A stretch of 42,270 nt of DNA from Ruminococcus sp. Its GTDB lineage: Bacteria > Bacillota > Clostridia > Oscillospirales > Ruminococcaceae. How positions within the stretch are numbered: position 1 is the stretch's first letter; each line of letters starts with the position of its first letter. Below the pieces are notes generated by a model. That model saw only the letters and a list, made by a program, of their open reading frames with translations, was not told the origin of the DNA and made no database searches. Below, piece after piece: positions 931-42,270 of the stretch. Position numbers and translations under genes: made by a program. The stretch covers positions 1-42,270 of the forward strand of contig JAGCHA010000029.1 of assembly GCA_017649325.1 (NCBI GenBank), given 5' to 3'.

Positions 931-1995
931 ATGGCAACAGCTGCTCAGCGCCGCATTAAATCTATAAGCTACGCTAAGTATGGCTATATTTTTATACTGC
1001 CATTTTTTATTGTTTATCTCTTCTTCCAGTTCTGGCCGTTGATTAATACGTTCATCGTATCTTTCCACGGTAATAGTGACACAGGTCTCGATACTTTTGT
1101 CGGTGTCAAGAACTACACAGACCTTTTATTCGGTTCCAAGAACCAGTTCGCTCTCGCTACACAGGTACATGAGAGCTTTCTGAGAACTCTTGGCAATACA
1201 GTTATCCTTTGGGTGGGTAACTTCATTCCTCAGCTCATTCTTTCTCTTTCTCTTGCGGTTTGGTTTACTGAAGCAAACCTCAAGATCCCGGGCAAGGAAT
1301 TCTTCAAGATAGTTATGTATCTTCCCAATATTATCACTGCCGCTTCTGTTGCCGTACTCTTTGTACAGCTCTGTGGTCAGTCTGAGACAAACCCCGGTGC
1401 GATAAACTCACTTCTTAACAAGATCGGTATCGTTAAGTCTCTCCCCGGTGACAAGGTTGACTGTATCCCCTTCATCGAGGGTATATGGCCTTCACGTGTC
1501 ATCATCATGTTCATCCAGACATGGATGTGGTTCGGTAATACTATGATCATGCTCATGTCAGGTATCCAGGGTATCAACCCTTCACTTTTCGAGGCTGCTG
1601 CTATTGACGGCGCAAGCTCGGGACAAGTTTTCCGCAAGATTACTCTGCCCCTTCTTACTCCCATCATGGCTTATACTCTCGTTACATCTATGATCGGTGG
1701 TCTTCAGATGTTCGATATTCCTTACCTCTATAATAAGGATGGTAAGGTCGGTGAGCACGTCGAGACTATTGCTGCTCTTATTTACAGCTACTTCCATGTT
1801 GCTGACCTGAATCAGAGTAAGCTCGGTTACTCAGGTGCTGCTTCTATTCTTCTGTTCATGATCACTCTTATCCTCGGCTGCATTGCGTTCTATATGACAC
1901 GTGATAAGGACGAGATCGCTAAGAAGAAGCAGAGAAAGAAGATCGCAAAACAGCTCAAGGCAGAAAGTAAACAGTTTGGAGGTTTTTCAATATGA
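931..1995 (+). CDS. Carbohydrate ABC transporter permease, MalF type
   Basis: Inner-membrane subunit of a sugar importer, 354 residues. A first membrane helix near residues 20-40 is followed by a periplasm-facing loop and then about five more helices. The cytoplasmic EAA loop that docks the ATPase is visible as EAAAIDGASSGQVFRKITLP around residues 215-235. The ATG at 931 is chosen over the GTG at 922 because GAGAGG (916-921) is correctly spaced for it. The tail is very basic (KKKQRKK), typical of a cytoplasmic end. The stop overlaps the next permease start by 4 bases, so the two are translationally coupled. It sits between the binding protein and the MalG-type partner. Substrate not determinable. 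Confidence 0.9.
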   Translation: MATAAQRRIKSISYAKYGYIFILPFFIVYLFFQFWPLINTFIVSFHGNSDTGLDTFVGVKNYTDLLFGSKNQFALATQVHESFLRTLGNTVILWVGNFIPQLILSLSLAVWFTEANLKIPGKEFFKIVMYLPNIITAASVAVLFVQLCGQSETNPGAINSLLNKIGIVKSLPGDKVDCIPFIEGIWPSRVIIMFIQTWMWFGNTMIMLMSGIQGINPSLFEAAAIDGASSGQVFRKITLPLLTPIMAYTLVTSMIGGLQMFDIPYLYNKDGKVGEHVETIAALIYSYFHVADLNQSKLGYSGAASILLFMITLILGCIAFYMTRDKDEIAKKKQRKKIAKQLKAESKQFGGFSI

Positions 1996-2885
1996 GTAAA
2001 ATGGACACAGTTTATGGAAAAACCAAGGATAATTACAGAACTAAGATAGTTCTCAAGTCAACTGTTCTTTTCATCTGGTTCGTTATCCTCACAATTATCT
2101 GTTTATTTCCGATATATATCCTTCTCGTAAACGCAACGCGTGACCATACGTCTATTGCAAACGGTATCAGCTTCATTCCAAGCACTCACATCTTTGATAA
2201 CTACAAGGTTGTTACAAGTGCTGATTACAGACTTAATTATCGTGCTCTTTACGGTTACAGAAACAGTTTGATTATCACTTGCAGTGCTTGCTTCCTTACC
2301 GTTTTCTTCTCTGCACTCACAGCTTATGGTATACATGTTTACGATTTCAAGCTCAAGGAAATTTCCTATGCCGTTGTTCTTCTTGTAATGATGGTTCCTA
2401 TGCAGGTTACTTCCGCTGGTTTCTTGAGTTTTATGTCTAAGATACATCTCACAAATACATATTGGCCTCTTATTATTCCTGCTATCGCAGCTCCTGGCGT
2501 TGTATACTTTATGAGATCGTATATGAAATCATCGTTCCCGCTTGATATCGTTGAGGCTGCCCGTATCGATGGCTGCGGCGAGTTCAGGACATTCGTTTCT
2601 ATCGCTATCCCGATGATGAAGCCCGCTATAGCTGTTCAGGCTATCTTCGCTTTCATCGCAAACTGGAACAACTTCTATACACCTAACATGATCCTTATCA
2701 ATGTTAAGGTAAGCAAGAAAACCCTTCCTATGATGATCTCGGCTATTCAGTCGTCTGACCGATTCAATGATTACGGTGCTATCTACCTTGCTATCGCAAT
2801 GGCTATCATACCGATCATTATCGCTTATGTATTCCTCTCGAGATTCATCATCGCTGGTGTTGCTCTTGGTGGTGTAAAGGAATAA
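1992..2885 (+). CDS. Carbohydrate ABC transporter permease, MalG type
   Basis: Second membrane subunit of the importer, 297 residues. The N-terminal helix (about residues 20-45) ends in FPIYILLVNATRD, typical of MalG-family proteins. The EAA loop is seen as VEAARIDGCGEFRTFVSIAIP near residues 185-205, and the protein ends in a hydrophobic helix and GGVKE. GGAGG at 1979-1983 precedes the ATG, which overlaps the upstream stop by 4 bases (ATGA). It would form the heterodimeric pore with the preceding protein. It is the last gene of the operon, since tandem terminators follow 11 bases after the stop. Confidence 0.9.
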   Translation: MSKMDTVYGKTKDNYRTKIVLKSTVLFIWFVILTIICLFPIYILLVNATRDHTSIANGISFIPSTHIFDNYKVVTSADYRLNYRALYGYRNSLIITCSACFLTVFFSALTAYGIHVYDFKLKEISYAVVLLVMMVPMQVTSAGFLSFMSKIHLTNTYWPLIIPAIAAPGVVYFMRSYMKSSFPLDIVEAARIDGCGEFRTFVSIAIPMMKPAIAVQAIFAFIANWNNFYTPNMILINVKVSKKTLPMMISAIQSSDRFNDYGAIYLAIAMAIIPIIIAYVFLSRFIIAGVALGGVKE

Positions 2886-2895
2886 TTTCACACAT

Positions 2896-2925
2896 AAACA
2901 GCGTACTTCGGTACGCTGTTTTTTT
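2896..2925 (+). terminator. Rho-independent terminator of the sugar importer operon
   Basis: An 11-bp inverted repeat (2896-2906 with 2911-2921) closes on a TTCG tetraloop and runs into T residues up to 2925. It starts 11 bases after the permease stop codon. Confidence 0.95.
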
Positions 2926-2930
2926 GTTTG

Positions 2931-2952
2931 GAGCGCTTCGGCGCTCTTTTTT
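2931..2952 (+). terminator. Second terminator in tandem
   Basis: A 6-bp GC-rich stem (2931-2936 with 2941-2946), again closed by TTCG and followed by six T residues. It backs up the terminator just upstream and isolates the spoIIIA operon from the importer operon. Confidence 0.85.
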
Positions 2953-2982
2953 GTTCTATTACCTTTTTGCTCCGCATAAACT
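2953..2982 (+). promoter_or_regulatory. Candidate sigma-E promoter of the spoIIIA operon
   Basis: GTTCTATT (2953-2960) and CATAAACT (2975-2982) are separated by 14 bases. The Bacillus sigma-E consensus is roughly GTCATATT, then about 14 bases, then CATACACT, and spoIIIA is a known sigma-E operon in Bacillus subtilis. The match is 6 of 8 and 7 of 8 positions. The start site would fall about 15 bases before the spoIIIAA ATG. No good sigma-A hexamers are seen in the gap after the terminators. Confidence 0.5.
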
Positions 2983-3002
2983 GTAGTAAAGGAGTGATGA
3001 AA

Positions 3003-3899
3003 ATGAGCGAAAGTACAAGCCTAGAGATAATTGCGGGTTACCTCAGCGAGCGGCTGAGAGTGCTTCTGCTGCACTCGGTCGGAACTATAGGAAGTGATGT
3101 CACGGAGATACGCCTTTATCTCGGACAACCTGTTGCCGTTGTCTTTACCGACAGGATATCCTTCCTTACTTGGAACTCTCTTACTGCAAGCAGCAGCAAT
3201 ACATCCTGCGTGAGATGTACTGCCGAAGATATCCGCAAGACCATTGATTCTGTCTCGCATTTCTCTTTCCATAGCCATATAAGCGAGTTCAGACAGGGGT
3301 ATTTCATCATTGGCAATGGTATTCGTGCAGGTATATCAGGCGTATATAACTCTGGCGGCATCATCACCGAGGTCACGGGTATCTGCTTCCGCATCTCGCG
3401 CTGTGTTATCGGCTGTGCGGACAAGCTCGTCGGTCTCATTGACGGCGGACTGCTTATCTGCGGAGGTGTAAACTCAGGCAAGACCACTCTTCTTCGCGAT
3501 ATCTGCCGTGTTATCGGCAGGCGAAGTAAAGTCGCTCTTATTGATGAGCGAGGTGAGATAGCAGCTGTTTCGGGTGGACATGTGGGCTGCGATGTTGGTG
3601 TGCTTACAAATGTGATGAGTGGCTGTAAGCGTAATATAGGTGTTATCTCTGCTATCCGCTCATTGTCGCCTAAGTGGATAATCTGCGATGAGATAGCAGA
3701 TGATTCCGATACCGATGCTATGCTCGCTGGGGCGGGCTGTGGTATTAGCTTCATCGCAACTGTTCACGCGGACAGCTTCGAGGCTCTGAAACGTCGTCCT
3801 TTTTCTGAAAGACTCCTTTCAGCGGGACTTTTCGCAAGAGCGGCTTTTCTTGCGGGAGCATCATCTCCGGGACAAGTTCTCTCAGTTAAGGAGATCTGA
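3003..3899 (+). CDS. spoIIIAA: Stage III sporulation protein AA, ATPase
   Basis: 298 residues. SpoIIIAA is a secretion-type ATPase thought to power the SpoIIIA-SpoIIQ channel joining mother cell and forespore. The P-loop is GGVNSGKT at residues 154-161, Walker B is IICDE at 226-230, and the conserved block LIDERGEIAAVSGG lies at 179-192. Note the P-loop starts GGVNS rather than the usual GPPGxGKT, but its Lys and Thr are kept. The ATG at 3003 is chosen because GGAG (2991-2994) is 8 bases upstream; in-frame starts further up lie inside the terminators or too close to that site. It is the first gene of an eight-gene operon in the canonical order. Confidence 0.95.
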   Translation: MSESTSLEIIAGYLSERLRVLLLHSVGTIGSDVTEIRLYLGQPVAVVFTDRISFLTWNSLTASSSNTSCVRCTAEDIRKTIDSVSHFSFHSHISEFRQGYFIIGNGIRAGISGVYNSGGIITEVTGICFRISRCVIGCADKLVGLIDGGLLICGGVNSGKTTLLRDICRVIGRRSKVALIDERGEIAAVSGGHVGCDVGVLTNVMSGCKRNIGVISAIRSLSPKWIICDEIADDSDTDAMLAGAGCGISFIATVHADSFEALKRRPFSERLLSAGLFARAAFLAGASSPGQVLSVKEI

Positions 3900-3900
3900 T

Positions 3901-4404
3901 ATGCTGCTGAGGTTTGCTGCTTCTGCAGCATTTGCGGCTGCGGGTGGGATATTCGGCTTTGCGTTCGCGGAAAAGCTTCGCCGTGAGCAGAAGTTATGCG
4001 TGCTGGTAGGACATTTGCTTCGAAGGACTGCTTTTCTTGTCGGCTACAGGTGCGATGATGTATACGCTGTTTGTGCGGAACTCAGACGGGACAGCGAGCT
4101 TTCTGCGCTGACGTTTTTGCAGTCGCTGCCACAGGAGTTCGAAAGCGGTGCTGACTTCCGCATTTGCTGGAAAAATGCTGTCAGGTCTGAGGGATTTGCT
4201 GCTGAAGAGGAAGATATACTGCTCAGGCTCGGCAATATCATAGGTCGCAGTGACGGCGAAAGTCAGCTCGATTCGATTCGCTGGCTCGAGCGAACACTTT
4301 CAGTAACTGAAAAGCAAAGAGGCGAGGCGTACCTCCGCAAAGGGAGACTCTACCGCAGCGTGGGGCTTCTTTTCGGCGTTATGGTCGGTATCCTTGTGAT
4401 ATGA
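3901..4404 (+). CDS. spoIIIAB: Stage III sporulation protein AB
   Basis: 167 residues, close to the usual length of about 170. SpoIIIAB resembles the GspF/PilC-type inner-membrane platform proteins of secretion systems. An N-terminal hydrophobic helix (about residues 5-20, Ala/Phe rich) and a C-terminal one (GLLFGVMVGILVI) flank an alpha-helical cytoplasmic domain. The start ATG lies 1 base after the spoIIIAA stop; a longer in-frame reading from 3850 would overlap spoIIIAA and is not needed. Identity rests on position between AA and AC and on the two-helix layout. Confidence 0.92.
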   Translation: MLLRFAASAAFAAAGGIFGFAFAEKLRREQKLCVLVGHLLRRTAFLVGYRCDDVYAVCAELRRDSELSALTFLQSLPQEFESGADFRICWKNAVRSEGFAAEEEDILLRLGNIIGRSDGESQLDSIRWLERTLSVTEKQRGEAYLRKGRLYRSVGLLFGVMVGILVI

Positions 4405-4417
4405 AAGGACGTTGGCA

Positions 4418-4615
4418 ATGGACATAGACCTTATTTTTAAAATTGCTGGAGTTGGAATAATCGTTGCCGTGCTCAACCTCGTTCTGAAAAGGGCAGAGCG
4501 TGAGGAACAGGCGATGATGACCACCCTTGCGGGACTCATTGTTGTGCTCCTTATCATCGTGCGTGAAATAGGCGGGCTGTTTGACACTGTGAAATCGGTA
4601 TTCGGACTATGGTAG
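4418..4615 (+). CDS. spoIIIAC: Stage III sporulation protein AC
   Basis: 65 residues with two membrane helices (about 5-22 and 36-55). The linking segment VLKRAEREEQAMMTTLAG is characteristic of SpoIIIAC. It belongs to the mother-cell membrane part of the SpoIIIA-SpoIIQ channel. AAAGGA (4404-4409) sits 8 bases before the ATG at 4418, favouring that start over the TTG at 4412. The end overlaps the spoIIIAD start by 7 bases. Confidence 0.95.
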   Translation: MDIDLIFKIAGVGIIVAVLNLVLKRAEREEQAMMTTLAGLIVVLLIIVREIGGLFDTVKSVFGLW

Positions 4616-4998
4616 AGAATGCTTTTGCAACTGCTGTTTTCTGTATAGCTTCAGCAATACTGGCGGTTCTGTTGCGGCAGTATGTACGCGAGCAGTCGCT
4701 GTTTATTTCTCTTGCAGCTTGCGTTATAGTTACGGGGGCACTTTTTGCAATGCTTGCTCCCGTTTTTGGTGATATTCGGGATATTTTTCTCGATTCGGGG
4801 CTTCCTGATAGCTACATAACCCTTTTATTCAAGGCGACTGCTATCTGCCTCATCACACAGATCACCTCCGACCTGTGCAGGGACAGCGGCGAGACTGCTA
4901 TCGCTTCTGCGGCAGAGCTGTGGGGGCGGGGAGCTGTGACTTTCATCAGCCTACCGCTCGTTAGGAACCTTATCACGCGTATCAGCGAGATATTGTGA
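4609..4998 (+). CDS. spoIIIAD: Stage III sporulation protein AD
   Basis: 129 residues, near the usual family length. Three or four hydrophobic helices are seen, and the conserved segment FKATAICLITQITSDLCRDSGETAIASAAELWGR (residues about 69-102) is the family hallmark, including a run of polar residues flanked by helices. It is a membrane component of the mother-cell half of the SpoIIIA-SpoIIQ channel. The ATG at 4609 overlaps the spoIIIAC stop, which implies coupled translation. Confidence 0.95.
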   Translation: MVENAFATAVFCIASAILAVLLRQYVREQSLFISLAACVIVTGALFAMLAPVFGDIRDIFLDSGLPDSYITLLFKATAICLITQITSDLCRDSGETAIASAAELWGRGAVTFISLPLVRNLITRISEIL

Positions 4999-5006
4999 GG
5001 TGCTTC

Positions 5007-6107
5007 ATGAGAAATATTATTATTGCGTTTTTGAGCTTCGTCGTTTTGCTGTCGGCGGTTGTGCCATATACTGCGCTTGCGGACGAGCCTGATGAAGTTT
5101 ATGCAGAGGTGACAGAGCAGCTGGATGAAGCTCTTGCGGAATTTGACCTTGGTATCGGCTATGATGACATCTCCGCGCTCAGCTTCGGTGAGCTGGCAGC
5201 TGCTGTTCGTGACAGGCTTGAAGCTCGTCTTGCTGCACCGATAAAGCTTCTTACCGTTCTTCTGCTCGTTATCGCGGCTGCGGCGGTGCTGAGAACTTCG
5301 GCGGGCAATACTCTTGGCGGCGCATCGGGCAGCACCTATGATATGGTCTGCGTGATGACCGCAGCGGCAGTGACAGCCCCGCAGCTCATAGACGTGTATC
5401 GCTCCACCGTTGAGGAGATTGAGCTCTGCGGCGGATTCATCATCGTTTTTGTTCCCGTGTTTACAGCGGTGTCGGTGATGTGCGGCGGAGCAATCTCCGC
5501 GGGCGTGTACCATATGCTGATACTCGGCGCTTCGGAGCTCATAACCGAGCTTTCAGAGAGCTGGCTCATGCCTATACTCGGGGCGACTACGGCGCTCTCC
5601 GTGACGGGGAGCGTCTTTCCCGATTCTGCGCTTGAAAGCGTGGTCGGACTGCTGAAAAAAGTGTCAACTTGGAGCATCACTCTTGTTATGGGGCTTTTTA
5701 CTGGCTTTGTTTCACTTAAATGCACCATAGCAGGCAAGGCTGACGGAGTTGCCGTGAAGGCTGCAAAATCGCTGATTTCTGGGGCTGTGCCGATTGTCGG
5801 CGGAGCTGTATCCGACGCATATGCCACTGTCAAGGGCAGCTTTGAGGTAATCGGCAGCAACGTCGGAGCGGCAGGTATTATCGGTATCATTTTGCTTCTT
5901 CTCCCGAAGATACTGGAGTTATTCGTCTACCGCGGCGTAATGCTTCTCGGAGCTGCAGCAGCAGATATGTTTGGCGCACCGTCGGTATCGAAGTTGTTGA
6001 AAAGCCTTGACGGAGGGCTTGCGACGGCGCAGTGTGTGCTGGTGTGCTATTCGCTGATGTTCGTGATATCATCGGCGATACTGACACAGTCAATAGGACA
6101 GGGGTGA
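5007..6107 (+). CDS. spoIIIAE: Stage III sporulation protein AE
   Basis: 366 residues, slightly shorter than the roughly 400 of Bacillus. A signal peptide (residues about 1-25, ending ALA before DEPDE) is followed by a polar segment and then many membrane helices, as in SpoIIIAE. GAGG at 4997-5000 supports the ATG at 5007. SpoIIIAE is the multispanning core of the SpoIIIA channel in the outer forespore membrane. It sits between AD and AF with only short gaps, as in all endospore formers. Confidence 0.95.
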   Translation: MRNIIIAFLSFVVLLSAVVPYTALADEPDEVYAEVTEQLDEALAEFDLGIGYDDISALSFGELAAAVRDRLEARLAAPIKLLTVLLLVIAAAAVLRTSAGNTLGGASGSTYDMVCVMTAAAVTAPQLIDVYRSTVEEIELCGGFIIVFVPVFTAVSVMCGGAISAGVYHMLILGASELITELSESWLMPILGATTALSVTGSVFPDSALESVVGLLKKVSTWSITLVMGLFTGFVSLKCTIAGKADGVAVKAAKSLISGAVPIVGGAVSDAYATVKGSFEVIGSNVGAAGIIGIILLLLPKILELFVYRGVMLLGAAAADMFGAPSVSKLLKSLDGGLATAQCVLVCYSLMFVISSAILTQSIGQG

Positions 6108-6111
6108 GTTT

Positions 6112-6573
6112 ATGGATATAAAAGCAGCAGTGCTTGCGGTGTGTGCGGTCACTGCAGCTAAATGCCTCGTCGGTCAGACAGCAGGCAGCGTGAAGATGAA
6201 GGGGCAGCTCAAGCTGATACTGGACATACTCCTCGCACTCGTGATAACTACGCCTTTCGTGAGCGGCTTTTCCGTTTTTACTCTCCCCGATATAGGAGTA
6301 TATGAGTTCTCGGATTCGGAATACCGGCAGGAGCTGTATGACCGTGCTCTTGCGGAGCAGACAGCCATGAACGTGGAGGATATCCTAAGCGAGCAGTTGA
6401 CTGCTGCGGGGATAGACTGCGAAAAAATATCAGCGGAGGTTAATATTATGTCCGACGGTAGCATATCTATTAGTAGAGTGACGGTAAATACAGAGGATAT
6501 CGCCGGCGCAGCGGAGGTCATACGCTGTACGCTCGGAGACGAAACGGAGGTCGTGAATGAAGAATTTTGGTAA
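6112..6573 (+). CDS. spoIIIAF: Stage III sporulation protein AF
   Basis: 153 residues, somewhat short for the family. Two N-terminal hydrophobic helices (about 3-18 and 31-50) are followed by a soluble domain with a beta-rich end (GSISISRVTVNTEDIAGA). SpoIIIAF has a ring-building motif fold related to secretion-system rings. The gene starts 4 bases after spoIIIAE and overlaps the start of spoIIIAG by 17 bases. Call is based on layout and position. Confidence 0.9.
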   Translation: MDIKAAVLAVCAVTAAKCLVGQTAGSVKMKGQLKLILDILLALVITTPFVSGFSVFTLPDIGVYEFSDSEYRQELYDRALAEQTAMNVEDILSEQLTAAGIDCEKISAEVNIMSDGSISISRVTVNTEDIAGAAEVIRCTLGDETEVVNEEFW

Positions 6574-7087
6574 GCTTGGAGAACTGCTCGGGAGCAAGAA
6601 TTCAGCTTTAGCCGTCACAGCCCTCGGGACTGCGGGGCTGCTTCTGATACTTATATCATCTTTTCTGCCGGACAAGAAGCAGACCTCGCCGCAGGCTCTC
6701 GAGTCTGCTGTTTCAGCGGCGTCGCAGTCTGAGAGCTACTGCCGTGAGACCGAGAGCAGACTGCGGGACTTCCTGCGCCGTATAGACGGGGCGGGGGATG
6801 TTGAGGTGTACCTCACAGTCGGTACGGGTGAGCGCTATGTCTACGCTGCCGAGGGCAGGAGGAGCAGTCAGGATAACAGAACGGAGGAGGAGAAAAAGTA
6901 TGTTATGACAGGTGGGAGCGGACAGCGCGAGCCACTCGTGGAGACAGTGGAGGCACCCGCTGTAACGGGAGCTGTGGTCGCGTGTACAGGCTGCGGCGAC
7001 CCTGCGGTCGAGGAGCGGATATACAAGGCTGTATCGGCGGCTCTGGGAATATCCACTGCAAGAATATATGTAACTAAGATGAAATGA
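6557..7087 (+). CDS. spoIIIAG: Stage III sporulation protein AG
   Basis: 176 residues. One membrane helix (about residues 18-38) anchors an intercellular-space domain. In Bacillus SpoIIIAG forms a large ring in the channel between the forespore membranes. The segment GAGDVEVYLTVGTGERYVYA (about residues 76-95) matches the conserved ring-domain strand, and the C-terminal half contains GAVVACTGCGDPAVEERIYKAVSAALGI, typical of the family. It overlaps spoIIIAF by 17 bases. Confidence 0.93.
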   Translation: MKNFGKLGELLGSKNSALAVTALGTAGLLLILISSFLPDKKQTSPQALESAVSAASQSESYCRETESRLRDFLRRIDGAGDVEVYLTVGTGERYVYAAEGRRSSQDNRTEEEKKYVMTGGSGQREPLVETVEAPAVTGAVVACTGCGDPAVEERIYKAVSAALGISTARIYVTKMK

Positions 7088-7097
7088 GGAGCAAGCT

Positions 7098-7661
7098 ATG
7101 AAAAAACCAACGATAATCATTGGGAAAAAGCAGATAATCATGACCTGTCTAACGCTTATGCTGGCGATAGCGGTCTACATAAACTATACGACAACGCCGA
7201 CAAAGTTCAAAAAGGACGGCGAGTCGGTGAAGGTCGCGGAAATGGGAGATACGGTCAATTACGGAGATACCGAGTTCGTGAACGCCTCCCCCGAGGACAG
7301 CGAGGCTAAACAGGTCGACTACTTCGCGCAGGCAAGGCTAGACCGCATGAACGGACGCGACGAGGCTGTCCAGACCCTCCAGACCATAATCGGCGGCGGA
7401 GATCTCACCGAGGACGAAATGGTGGTCAATGCGCTGGATGCTGTGGAGGTCTCGAAGCTGATAGAGAGCGAGGGAACGATAGAATCTCTCGTAAAAGCGC
7501 AGGGATTCGATGATTGTGTAGCCTACCTCGACGGCGAATCCGCGAAGGTCGTGGTCAAGACTGAGGGGCTCGATAAGGCACAGGCAGCAGCAATAAAGGA
7601 CATTATTCTCGGCGAAACAGAAATTTCTTCTGAAAATATAAGAATTTTTGAGGTAAAGTAG
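7098..7661 (+). CDS. spoIIIAH: Stage III sporulation protein AH
   Basis: 187 residues. The N-terminus MKKPTIIIGKKQIIM followed by one membrane helix (about residues 13-30) is typical of SpoIIIAH. The C-terminal half holds the YscJ/FliF-like ring-building domain (IESEGTIESLVKAQGFDDCV, then AVVVKTEG-like strand). SpoIIIAH binds forespore SpoIIQ across the intermembrane space. It is the last gene of the operon: no terminator is obvious, and a strong vegetative promoter begins right after the stop. Confidence 0.95.
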   Translation: MKKPTIIIGKKQIIMTCLTLMLAIAVYINYTTTPTKFKKDGESVKVAEMGDTVNYGDTEFVNASPEDSEAKQVDYFAQARLDRMNGRDEAVQTLQTIIGGGDLTEDEMVVNALDAVEVSKLIESEGTIESLVKAQGFDDCVAYLDGESAKVVVKTEGLDKAQAAAIKDIILGETEISSENIRIFEVK

Positions 7662-38823: not shown

Positions 38824-39789
38824 ATGGGAAAGGTACACGTAAATAAGGGCAGAGTTGCTATCGCTCTTATTGGAGTCGTAGTATCAATGACAGTGGTTGA
38901 CAGCGTGAGAAGAGAGTTCTTCAGGGTCAACACGAGCAGCAAGGTGACGGTTCACGGCGACTTCATTTCGAAGTCTGCTTCTGCTATGTCGGACGATAAT
39001 ACTGTTCCGTTCACACTTGACGAGAACGGACAGCCTACGACCGAATTCAACGGCATAAGATTTGTTGGCAAGACAGAGCAGCAGCTTACATCTGATAAGA
39101 TTTCACAGGGGCTTCTTGTTTTAGCTGACGCGGAGCACCCTGTTGCCGAGGGCAGCAAGAGTGAGATGATAGATCTGCTCGGCTGCAAGAACGACAGCTA
39201 TACTCTCATCGAAGAAGGTGTAATGCTCAACACAGACGCCGCAGAGGCACTCAACAGCCTGATGGTGGGCTACGAGAACGCAACGGGACTGAATGACTTT
39301 GTAGTATACGGTACTACCGAGACCTACACTGGTCAGGGTTCATACTGCCCTAAGGCTTTTGCCGAAAGTGCAACAGGCAATACAGTTGACCTTGCGTTGA
39401 ACGGCTGCGGTTCTGTCATAGCTTTTGACGGCTACGACGAGGAGGGCTGGATTGTCGAGAATTGCGCTAAATATGGCTTTATCGTGAGATATCCGCAGGG
39501 CAAGCAGGAAAAGACGGGACAGGCTTTCTGCCCGTGGCATCTCCGCTACGTAGGCAAGCTCCACGCAGCAGTAATGCAGCGCAATGACCTTTGTCTTGAA
39601 GAATATCTCGAATTCCTCAAGAGCTACACTGTAGACGCTCCATTTGAGTTCTCTTACGAGGGGGCGGGATACGAGATATACTACATTCCCTCAGAAGGCG
39701 ACACGACGACGGCGATAGTGCCTATTTCGGGCAACTACAGCATCTCGGGAAACAACATTGACGGATTCATCGTTACATACAAGAAATAA
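38824..39789 (+). CDS. VanY-like (peptidase M15B) protein lacking key catalytic residues
   Basis: 321 residues with an N-terminal membrane helix (about 10-26), so the domain faces outside. M15B enzymes are zinc D,D-carboxypeptidases that trim the terminal D-Ala of peptidoglycan stems. The C-terminal core CAKYGFIVRYPQGKQEKTG and PWHLRYVG (214-244) matches VanY closely. Where family members have SxHxTGxAVD it reads AESATGNTVD (180-189), so the first zinc-ligand His is Ser182 while Asp189 is kept. Where EPWH is expected it reads CPWH (236-239), so the catalytic Glu is Cys while His239 is kept. GGAGG lies 10 bases before the ATG. Likely a non-hydrolytic homologue that may still bind peptidoglycan. 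Confidence 0.85.
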   Translation: MGKVHVNKGRVAIALIGVVVSMTVVDSVRREFFRVNTSSKVTVHGDFISKSASAMSDDNTVPFTLDENGQPTTEFNGIRFVGKTEQQLTSDKISQGLLVLADAEHPVAEGSKSEMIDLLGCKNDSYTLIEEGVMLNTDAAEALNSLMVGYENATGLNDFVVYGTTETYTGQGSYCPKAFAESATGNTVDLALNGCGSVIAFDGYDEEGWIVENCAKYGFIVRYPQGKQEKTGQAFCPWHLRYVGKLHAAVMQRNDLCLEEYLEFLKSYTVDAPFEFSYEGAGYEIYYIPSEGDTTTAIVPISGNYSISGNNIDGFIVTYKK

Positions 39790-39868: not shown

Positions 39869-41005
39869 ATGAAGCGATTATTCAGGTTATTTGCGGCAAT
39901 ACTTCTGATCGGGACGCTTATCCCGCAAGGAGCAATTGCCGCCGACGAATCTGCCGAGGCTGCACAGGCGTACTTACTTGTTGAGCAAGCGACCGGTACG
40001 GTCCTCGCGTGCAAAAATGCTGATATGCCGCTGAACTGCGGATATCTGAGCAAGCTAATGTCTCTGCTGCTTATAGCCGAGGACATTGAAACAGGGAAGT
40101 TTCGTCTTGATACGGAACTGACAGCTTCAGAGTCTGTTCGCGGCATTAAAGGAGCTGTGATATGGCTTGAACCGAGCGACAGACTGACTGTTGAGGAACT
40201 GCTGAAATCGGTTATAATCGGCAATGCCAATGACGCGATGACGGTGCTTGCGGAGGCATCAGAGAGGAGTGTTGACGGTTTTGTCTCGCGTATGAATAGC
40301 GAAGCTTTTGACATGGGGCTACGAAATACTGCCTTTTACTCGCCATACGGCTTCTATAATGAGCGGGAGCATTCCTCCGCTCGTGATATTGCTGAGATAT
40401 GCCGTGCCTTGTCACGTTACGAATTCCTTCGACTGTTTTTTAGGACATGGCGTGATTTCGTCAAGGGCGGCGCGACAGAACTTGTCAGTGAGAACACGCT
40501 TTCTCGTACCTACGAGCGGCATATCGGCTTCAAGGCTTGTCACTCTGACGAAGCGGGCTATTGTGCGGCGGAGGGCGGTATAAACGATGCAGGCATGTGC
40601 TTTATCTCTGTCGTGCTCGGAGCTCCTGATGTCGAAACTTCGCTCAATGCTGCAAAAAAACTGATAAACCGCGGCTTCACGGACTACAAGGTCACAGCGA
40701 CTATGTTTCCCGACGAGATGCTTATGCCGCTGAAAGTGCGCGGTGGAGAGGGCTCCGCCGTAGAGATACGTATTCGCGAGCAGATGGGGATAGTCATGCC
40801 GCGCGGAGTGACTGAGCTGGGGACGGTGACTGTCCTGCCTGAGTACATCACTGCTCCCGTAAAAAAGGGGCAGAGAATAGGTTTGGCGGGGTTTTACAGC
40901 GGCAAGGAGCTTGTCTGTGAGGCAGATATAGTGGCGGCAGACGACGTTGCCTCTTTGAGCTACGGCTTTGTCTTTGTGAAAACTTTGGCAAAACTGCTGA
41001 AATAG
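39869..41005 (+). CDS. DacF-like (peptidase S11) protein with all three active-site motifs lost
   Basis: 378 residues with a signal peptide (about 1-24, ending AIAA). S11 D,D-carboxypeptidases of the PBP5 type remove terminal D-Ala. The fold is clear: AYLLVEQATGTVLACKNAD (34-52), IIGNANDAMTVLAE (116-129), the PBP5-like C-terminal domain (about 270-350) and an amphipathic tail. The catalytic motifs are changed: SxxK reads YLSK (Tyr59 for the nucleophile Ser, Lys62 kept), SxN reads NAN (119-121), and KTG reads KAC (222-224). GAGGTGATGAA precedes the ATG. It cannot act by the serine mechanism; a structural or binding role is likely. Confidence 0.9.
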   Translation: MKRLFRLFAAILLIGTLIPQGAIAADESAEAAQAYLLVEQATGTVLACKNADMPLNCGYLSKLMSLLLIAEDIETGKFRLDTELTASESVRGIKGAVIWLEPSDRLTVEELLKSVIIGNANDAMTVLAEASERSVDGFVSRMNSEAFDMGLRNTAFYSPYGFYNEREHSSARDIAEICRALSRYEFLRLFFRTWRDFVKGGATELVSENTLSRTYERHIGFKACHSDEAGYCAAEGGINDAGMCFISVVLGAPDVETSLNAAKKLINRGFTDYKVTATMFPDEMLMPLKVRGGEGSAVEIRIREQMGIVMPRGVTELGTVTVLPEYITAPVKKGQRIGLAGFYSGKELVCEADIVAADDVASLSYGFVFVKTLAKLLK

Positions 41006-41135: not shown

Positions 41136-41149
41136 GGAGGTAAATCAAA

Positions 41150-42270
41150 TGTCATTAAAGCTTAACACAAAATATCTGGCTGACTTTGTCAATGCTGATG
41201 AGCTCACAGGTATCAAGGCTCAGGTCGAGGCTGCGGCTCAGACTCTCCACAGCAAGACAGGTCTCGGAAACGATTTTCTGGGCTGGGTAAGTCTCCCTAC
41301 CGACTACGATAAGGAGGAATTCGCTCGTATCAAGGCTGCTGCCGAGAAGATAAAGAGCAATTCCGATATTCTCATCGTTATCGGTATCGGCGGTTCTTAC
41401 CTTGGCGCGAGAGCAGCTATCGAGCTTCTCAAGTCGCCCCTTTACAATAACATGAAGAAGGACACCCCCGACATCTACTATGTAGGCAACAGCATCAATC
41501 CTACATATCTCAGCGAGATAATCTCTCTCTGCGAGGGTAAGGACTTCTCCGTAAACGTAATTTCCAAGTCGGGCACAACTACCGAGCCCGCACTTGCATT
41601 CCGTATCTTCAAGAAGATGGTAGAGGACAAGTACGGTAAGGAAGAGGCTAAGAACCGTATCTTTGCTACAACAGACAAGGCAAGAGGAACTCTCAAGAAC
41701 CTCTCCGACGCCGAGGGTTACGAGACATTCGTTATCCCCGACGACGTAGGCGGACGCTTCTCTGTACTCACAGCCGTTGGCCTTCTGCCCATTGCAGTTG
41801 CAGGCTGCGACATTGATGCCCTCATGAAGGGCGCTGCAAAGGCTCAGGCTGACTTCTGCGCAGACTTCGACAACAATGACTGCTACAAGTATGCAGCTCT
41901 CAGAAACATCCTTTATCGCAAGGGCAAGGCTGTTGAGATGCTCGTTTCCTATGACCCCAGCTTCGTGATGATGAGCGAGTGGTACAAGCAGCTCTTCGGC
42001 GAGAGCGAGGGCAAGGACAACAAGGGTATCTTCCCTGCATCTGTAACATTCTCGACAGACCTCCACTCCATGGGTCAGTATATACAGGACGGCGCTCGTA
42101 TCATGTTCGAGACAGTCGTTGACATCAAGAATCCCAAGCAGGATCTTTTCCTCGAGCCCGATGCAGAGAACCTCGACGGACTCAACTTCCTCACGAACCA
42201 GAATATGTCTGTAGTCAATAGGAAGGCATTCGAGGGAACAGTTCTCGCTCATACTGAGGGCGGAGTTCCC
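41150..42270 (+). CDS. pgi: Glucose-6-phosphate isomerase, N-terminal part (3' end outside window)
   Basis: The frame from ATG 41150 stays open to the window end (373 full codons). Interconverts glucose 6-phosphate and fructose 6-phosphate. The sugar-phosphate site [14 protein letters not shown] (about residues 79-92) and [13 protein letters not shown] (about 139-151) are clear, [11 protein letters not shown] (about 195-205) matches the PGI signature, and the catalytic Glu region lies near [14 protein letters not shown] at 41136-41140 precedes the start. Family length is about 450 residues, so roughly 75 are missing. Codon bias suggests high expression. Confidence 0.97.

Follow-up and report, generated by a model that had tools for sequence, protein, structure and literature searches.

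A DacF-type carboxypeptidase homologue without its catalytic residues is conserved upstream of pgi in Ruminococcus

The DNA analysed here (the window) is a stretch of 42,270 nucleotides from Ruminococcus sp. (contig JAGCHA010000029.1, assembly GCA_017649325.1, forward strand). Directly upstream of pgi it encodes a member of the PBP5/DacA-DacF carboxypeptidase family, designated pseudo-DacF (P0001), in which the nucleophile and the residues holding the carboxylate of the substrate or of penicillin are shown by structure-based alignment to be missing. Our preferred reading, to which we assign a probability of roughly 0.6, is that a pgi-linked DacF-type D,D-carboxypeptidase of the host family became, through vertical descent, a conserved pseudoenzyme that would now serve, most likely, as a scaffold or regulator.

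Results

Catalytic residues missing from pseudo-DacF

The gene and the positions of its former motifs, the latter placed by residue-by-residue alignment to the PBP5 and PBP6 structures, are as follows.

39869..41005, + strand: pseudo-DacF, S11/PBP5-fold protein with lost catalytic residues (open reading frame, Pfam, structure alignments, orthologues)
40043..40054, + strand: SxxK position, Tyr59-Leu-Ser-Lys62
40223..40231, + strand: SxN position, Asn119-Ala-Asn121 (NAN, unchanged throughout the clade)
40532..40540, + strand: KTG position, Lys222-Ala-Cys224
40640..40642, + strand: Ser258, in place of the carboxylate-binding Arg248 of PBP5

The open reading frame (ORF) starts with ATG and has 378 codons plus the stop, with no internal stop. 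The protein matches Pfam Peptidase_S11 over residues 26-253 (E = 6.5e-37; 127.7 bits, above the curated cut-off of 27.6) and PBP5_C over residues 286-361 (E = 1.1e-6). The solved relatives that it matches include PBP5 and PBP6 (4k91, 1.3e-34; 3it9, 8.1e-32; 1hd8, 5e-28), and an AlphaFold2 (AF2) model and structural comparison indicate that the PBP5-like two-domain fold is kept. An earlier note, made by reading the DNA alone, had proposed an intact frame, a kept fold and the loss of SxxK, SxN and KTG at the places listed above; the alignments agree with it at all three motifs.

Pseudo-DacF thus has the same fold as the PBP5/DacA-DacF family (MEROPS S11, PF00768 and PF07943; 4k91, P. aeruginosa PBP5; 3itb, E. 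coli PBP6) and differs from it by the replacement of the SxxK serine by Tyr, of the SxN serine by Asn, of the KTG Thr-Gly by Ala-Cys and of Arg248 by Ser258, the last of which goes beyond the earlier note. The number Arg248 is obtained by counting from Lys213, which we take to be the lysine of the PBP5 KTG motif. The loss is selective: the hydroxyls (Ser, Ser, Thr) and the KTG glycine are gone while Lys62, Asn121 and Lys222 stay. The roles of the three motifs are described in an extract of PMC9953012, and according to an extract of PMC4979060, Arg248 contacts a cyclic boronate through its carboxylate in bidentate fashion and likewise contacts the C-3 carboxylate of penicillins. A motif search of the whole protein revealed neither S..K nor K[TS]G, which excludes a true SxxK or KTG elsewhere in it. 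On its sequence, neither enzyme activity nor penicillin binding is expected of pseudo-DacF.

Conservation in the Ruminococcus clade

Contigs were scanned for orthologues with six peptide patterns, all of which avoid the motif positions. The scan yielded 39 loci with 54-85% identity, only three of which are not named Ruminococcus; after removal of the duplicates L004 and L005 from 42 loci, 40 distinct Ruminococcus-clade sequences, including that of the window, were compared. Residue 59 is Tyr in 38 of them, Trp in one and Phe in one, and is never Ser. Lys62, Asn119, Asn121 and Lys222 are each found in 40/40, residue 223 is Ala in 39 and Glu in one, and KTG occurs in none. Residue 224 is Ser in 16, Cys in 14, Ala in eight and Thr in two. 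The frame is open in all 40 (L070 is interrupted by a contig end), and the same replacements occur in metagenome-assembled genomes (MAGs) and in apparent isolate records (L033, L034). As the motif loss is common to all 40 sequences and these were found with motif-free patterns, it is not due to chance. The records L034 and L050, titled Anaerotruncus sp. MC2020 and Alistipes senegalensis, have Ruminococcus-type loci and their names may be wrong.

The ratio of nonsynonymous to synonymous substitution (dN/dS, NG86) was 0.075-0.109 in six of ten pairs with the window copy, the other four being saturated, and 0.088-0.140 in four other pairs. By comparison, the values for pgi were 0.004-0.05, from which pseudo-DacF evolves faster than pgi yet is clearly constrained. 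It is a protein kept under purifying selection and not debris. The fixed replacements, in place of random changes among the orthologues, the low dN/dS, the single clade described below and the kept fold support the earlier proposal of selection for a non-catalytic role.

Intact and altered forms at the pgi locus

41149..42270, + strand: pgi, glucose-6-phosphate isomerase, running off the window and used as syntenic marker (named by reading its translation; no family search was run)

In the window, pgi lies directly downstream of pseudo-DacF on the same strand, 143 bp separating the stop (41005) from the pgi start. It is present at 35 of the 40 Ruminococcus-clade loci, the remaining five of which sit at contig ends. 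In the host family 148 genomes were sampled, and the best match was read in 126 of them, giving 127 ORFs; matches in the remaining 22 were only weak, and another S11 gene from one of these (L171) was taken as outgroup. Among the 127 ORFs, 107 are linked to pgi. Intact SxxK, SxN and KTG motifs are found in 86 (70 pgi-linked) and NAN in 36 (32 pgi-linked), whereas the remaining five are partly altered (three) or fragments (two). By hand count, 34 genomes, spread over 26 of the 123 sampled genera, carry a reliable NAN form. L164, whose N-terminus is misaligned (its residue-59 'R' was discarded), and L165, a broken distant relative split into two ORFs, were not counted. In most sampled genomes of the family the orthologous pgi-linked gene therefore encodes a normal enzyme, a point absent from the earlier note. 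Examples such as L027, L029, L032 and L022 occupy the same position upstream of pgi and the same tree, with 34-36% identity; they carry ASITK, SxN and KTG, and the pseudo-DacF clade stands beside them.

Outside the family, all 25 fetched loci are intact and 11 have pgi; they are the best-scoring matches of an order-wide search of 197 genomes. The 27 best-scoring loci comprised these 25 and two dead loci from within the family, and a dead clade extending beyond the host family was rejected. Since the out-of-family loci are intact and the locus is shared, the intact pgi-linked enzyme is the ancestral state and the change took place in situ. A paralogue arising beside an active copy was rejected on the ground that the pgi locus is home to intact and dead forms alike.

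These results are in agreement with the phylogeny. In a quick tree of 139 rows calculated without the motif columns, the 43 NAN rows fell on one side of a branch with a Shimodaira-Hasegawa-like approximate likelihood-ratio (SH-aLRT) support of 94. In a mixture-model tree of 72 rows, the NAN clade received a support of 89/94 and a single change was kept in 90% of 200 bootstrap trees. Pseudo-DacF groups with the pgi-linked S11 proteins, apart from other S11 paralogues. Ruminococcus was thinned to 12 rows for the larger tree and further for the 72-row tree and the entropy comparisons; 20 intact rows of the 72-row tree were drawn at random, and the trees do not include L122, L142, L159, L164 and L165, which are fragmentary, broken or misaligned. 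Partial changes occur outside the NAN clade in L023 (KYG, in the sister group), L115 (KTA) and L111. The last (1963-3147, - strand), a pgi-linked DacF lying within the intact part of the tree, has SxxQ and KAC and retains SAN; its motif loss is probably a separate, independent event.

Fixed and variable positions of the cleft

The positions of 35 thinned NAN rows were compared with those of 81 intact rows. Positions 59, 223, 224, 225, 226 and 258, invariant or nearly so in the intact rows, vary in the NAN rows, where residue 223 is still mostly Ala (27/35). Residue 59 is Thr in 14, His in eight, Ser in seven, Tyr in five and Val in one, a variability which argues against a new nucleophile at this place. 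Arg258 is found in 79 of 88 intact rows and in none of the 12 Ruminococcus rows. Zero entropy was observed in the NAN rows at Lys62, Met64, Asn119, Ala120, Asn121, Asp122 and Lys222. Asn119 stands for a serine, and Gly58 (31/35) for an alanine, each present in 81/81 intact rows; Gly118, variable in the intact rows, is found in 33/35. The best clue to what the cleft now does comes from the fixed Lys-Asn-Asn-Lys set, which would be either a structural lock or a changed binding site.

Predicted export and membrane attachment

39869..39943, + strand: N-terminal signal peptide region, about residues 1-25 (hydrophobic stretch after KRLFR, hydropathy only)
40955..41002, + strand: amphipathic helix at the C-terminus (residues 363-378), probably a tether to the membrane (composition; AF2 helix 365-377)

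The sequence suggests that pseudo-DacF keeps a signal peptide and a C-terminal amphipathic helix. The AF2 confidence is low at residues 18-26. The helix would presumably serve as a membrane tether as in PBP5-type enzymes.

The neighbouring VanY-like protein

38824..39789, + strand: pseudo-VanY (P0002), M15B-type carboxypeptidase homologue, 321 aa (profile and structure matches)

A second gene, unnoticed in the earlier note, adjoins pseudo-DacF in Ruminococcus and its sequence is that of an unrelated pseudo-carboxypeptidase. P0002, which by eye has an N-terminal membrane anchor, matches the VanY profile only in its C-terminal half (profile positions 68-132; 8.2e-11, 42.2 bits, cut-off 25) and the VanXYG structure 4f78 (1.5e-27). 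A zinc-binding His is replaced by Ser182 and the catalytic Glu by Cys236. In the relative LdcB, zinc is bound by His153, Asp160 and His207, and the E204A mutant is much poorer and has residual activity (extract of PMC4087270); the loss of His in P0002 is therefore more telling than that of Glu. One alignment took in 30 of the 36 homologous ORFs, and the counts quoted are a recount of all 36: position 182 is Ser in 28, Arg in five, Cys in two and Asn in one, position 236 is Cys in 34, Tyr in one and Ala in one, and Asp189 and His239 are both present in 36/36. Compared with VanY/VanXY-type M15B proteins (PF02557; 4f78, VanXYG; 4ox3, YodJ), P0002 and its homologues thus share the C-terminal half of the profile, the zinc Asp and the second His but lack the first zinc His and the catalytic Glu, with an intact site in none. 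The dN/dS against the window copy was 0.034-0.095 in five of seven pairs, the other two yielding no value.

Pseudo-VanY lies directly upstream of pseudo-DacF on the same strand at 32 of the 42 Ruminococcus-clade loci, 2.5-3.8 kb away at two and in divergent orientation at two. It was not seen at six, four of which have less than 2.7 kb of upstream sequence, nor was it found at the family loci of other genera, whose flanks span about 1.5-2 kb. A VanY homologue was found in 120/120 scanned genomes of the genus, the motifs having been read in a minority only. More distant members of the VanY-like group at other places in the genus (L275, L280, L281-L284) have lost both residues, with other replacements. 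In the genome of the window, another VanY-like protein (L276/L289; G000:C114, about 3939-4697) keeps the first zinc His and the Asp and has RTYT for EPWH; judged by these letters, it is probably inactive too.

A third S11 gene, with SxxK and KTG intact and SGA for SxN (Asn lost), stands beside pseudo-VanY at L055 (3805-4902) and 14 more loci (L050, L052-L054, L056-L059, L061-L063, L066, L070, L071) and is absent at the window locus. Related forms with SGA, SGG or SGC were seen in NAN genomes and in intact ones alike.

Other carboxypeptidases, sporulation and cell shape

An intact S11 protein of the ASTTKIM type was present in all nine NAN genomes inventoried. The genome of the window has four S11 genes, namely pseudo-DacF, two intact (L002, L232) and one degenerate (L003). 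Of its six VanY-type genes, four have motifs that look intact by eye; this genome is 84% complete and these numbers are minima. A loss of all carboxypeptidase activity was rejected on these grounds. L003 (1477-2889, + strand; G000:C16) has a long C-terminal tail and, by eye, a membrane stretch. With L188, L233 and L235, it belongs to a second group of S11 proteins with degenerate motifs (GPLVN, SIEAS, KTA and similar) in genomes of the pseudo-DacF clade. Dockerin-like repeats were seen by eye in two proteins of the window's genome with intact motifs, the S11 protein L232 (1776-2939, + strand) and the VanY-type protein L285 (1355-2746, - strand); Table 2 of PMC2930009 already has one entry each for a dockerin carboxypeptidase and a dockerin VanY protease of R. 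flavefaciens FD-1.

Sporulation was rejected as the driver of the change, because SpoIVA was matched in 34/34 hand-counted NAN genomes and in most intact ones; in G027 it is in two pieces, below the cut-off. SpoIVA was also matched in the genome of the window, where, from translations read by eye, an ORF run at 2928-7661 of the window resembles the spoIIIA sporulation operon. Rod shape gave no clean link: MreB had no above-cut-off match in eight of the 34 NAN genomes and in some intact ones. Seven of these eight (G063, G071, G074, G103, G113, G035, G143) belong to a mostly-His59 subclade of nine genomes, hinting at non-rod relatives there.

Discussion

We propose that pseudo-DacF would be exported and anchored to the membrane on its outer side, as hydropathy and helical moment suggest, and would work without catalysis through surfaces inherited from DacF. 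Its likeliest role would be that of a scaffold for, or a regulator of, proteins that build or trim the wall. The former active-site cleft would be held by the fixed network of Lys62, Asn119, Asn121 and Lys222, which replaces the catalytic Ser-Lys-Ser network; in Ruminococcus the nucleophile position is filled by an aromatic residue, which is Tyr59 with few exceptions. There pseudo-DacF would probably act together with the other dead carboxypeptidase, whose fold is unrelated and whose gene usually lies immediately upstream. A partner-based role is plausible as one of the structural matches, 9a4z, is by its title an integrative YXKC-DACA model obtained by crosslinking mass spectrometry, which indicates an intact DacA with a protein partner. 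Tentatively, a whole bacterial lineage may have swapped one D,D-carboxypeptidase for a non-catalytic version of itself which, in Ruminococcus, would form with the second dead carboxypeptidase a dedicated wall module, a 'reader' or scaffold recognising peptidoglycan stems or wall proteins and leaving them uncut.

Several observations weigh against a fully dead scaffold descended once at the pgi locus. Ser59 is kept in 7 of the 43 NAN rows and Arg258 in 15 of the 35 thinned ones; the loss is thus graded across the clade, and such relatives might still be acylated. The rows retaining Ser59 also indicate that SxN and KTG seem to have been lost first and the nucleophile later. The invariant cleft residues may mean that a ligand is still bound. 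Four of the 36 NAN ORFs (L010, L012, L014, L018) are not directly upstream of pgi, and the support for a single origin (89/94) is good and not overwhelming. The dN/dS values of pseudo-DacF are rough, with dS above 1 or saturated in many pairs; the AF2 model was built on an alignment of only 29 close orthologues; and both the signal peptide and the tether are read from composition.

The alternative closest to our proposal is a ligand receptor, in which the cleft is rebuilt to bind without cutting another wall component, e.g. a tri- or tetrapeptide or a crosslinked stem, so that pseudo-DacF would be a sensor of peptidoglycan state or a tether and not a protein-protein scaffold. This is possible, at clearly lower odds: the Lys-Asn-Asn-Lys set is invariant in 35/35 thinned NAN rows, Gly118 is under tighter constraint than its counterpart in intact enzymes and at Asn119 the clade has an invariant replacement of its own, but the invariant core may be structural only and the would-be readers of the terminal carboxylate of the stem (Thr223, Gly224, Arg258) are lost or variable, for which reason a scaffold or regulator is ranked a little above a stem-binding reader. 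An enzyme whose chemistry has shifted to Lys62, His225 or another group is improbable; both motif lysines are invariant, but residue 59 may be Thr, His, Tyr, Ser, Val or Phe in NAN rows and Trp in another Ruminococcus sequence, and His225 is present in only 15/35.

The role of β-lactam decoy that the earlier note had also envisaged, or that of a β-lactam sensor, agrees with the overall fold of a penicillin-binding protein (PBP) and is nevertheless very unlikely, because the acylated serine is gone and the KTG Thr and Gly and the arginine that binds the penicillin carboxylate (extract of PMC4979060) are missing in 12/12 Ruminococcus rows; moreover, the named near neighbours in the window are metabolic genes, except the VanY-like gene, itself without catalytic residues. 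Least credible of all is a decaying relic or an artefact of assembly or annotation, for which the motif loss itself and the split L165 could be invoked. It is opposed by the frame open in all Ruminococcus-clade sequences, by a dN/dS of about 0.1, by the same replacements in isolate-like records and MAGs and by the occurrence of one clade in at least 26 sampled genera; assembly error and single-genome decay were rejected on the shared replacements, dN/dS and conserved frames.

Inactive serine peptidase homologues are already known, and what appears to be new here is this S11 lineage. The extract used of PMC2605481 counts inactive serine protease homologues (SPHs) as 42 of 966 across S1, S8, S12, S14 and S16, S11 not being surveyed. 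There, as in pseudo-DacF, an inactive homologue is retained, and SPHs are thought to gain new functions; in the present case, unlike theirs, a whole orthologous lineage has changed, mostly at one locus. Searches limited to open-licence PMC papers gave no title or abstract opening that describes this S11 pseudoenzyme clade.

The family is usually labelled D-alanyl-D-alanine carboxypeptidase and seen as a penicillin target. This label is very probably wrong for the pseudo-DacF clade, which should not be called carboxypeptidase as three defining catalytic features fail. The clade is a natural experiment that bears on a possible function of low-molecular-mass PBPs other than catalysis: since intact and dead orthologues share a locus in related genera, comparing or deleting them can put a non-catalytic role to the test. 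The two adjacent, conserved dead carboxypeptidases of different folds suggest a non-enzymatic handling of wall peptide stems in rumen and gut Ruminococcus, and in Ruminococcus and a number of its relatives what the annotation names a penicillin-binding enzyme probably has a structural or regulatory part in the wall.
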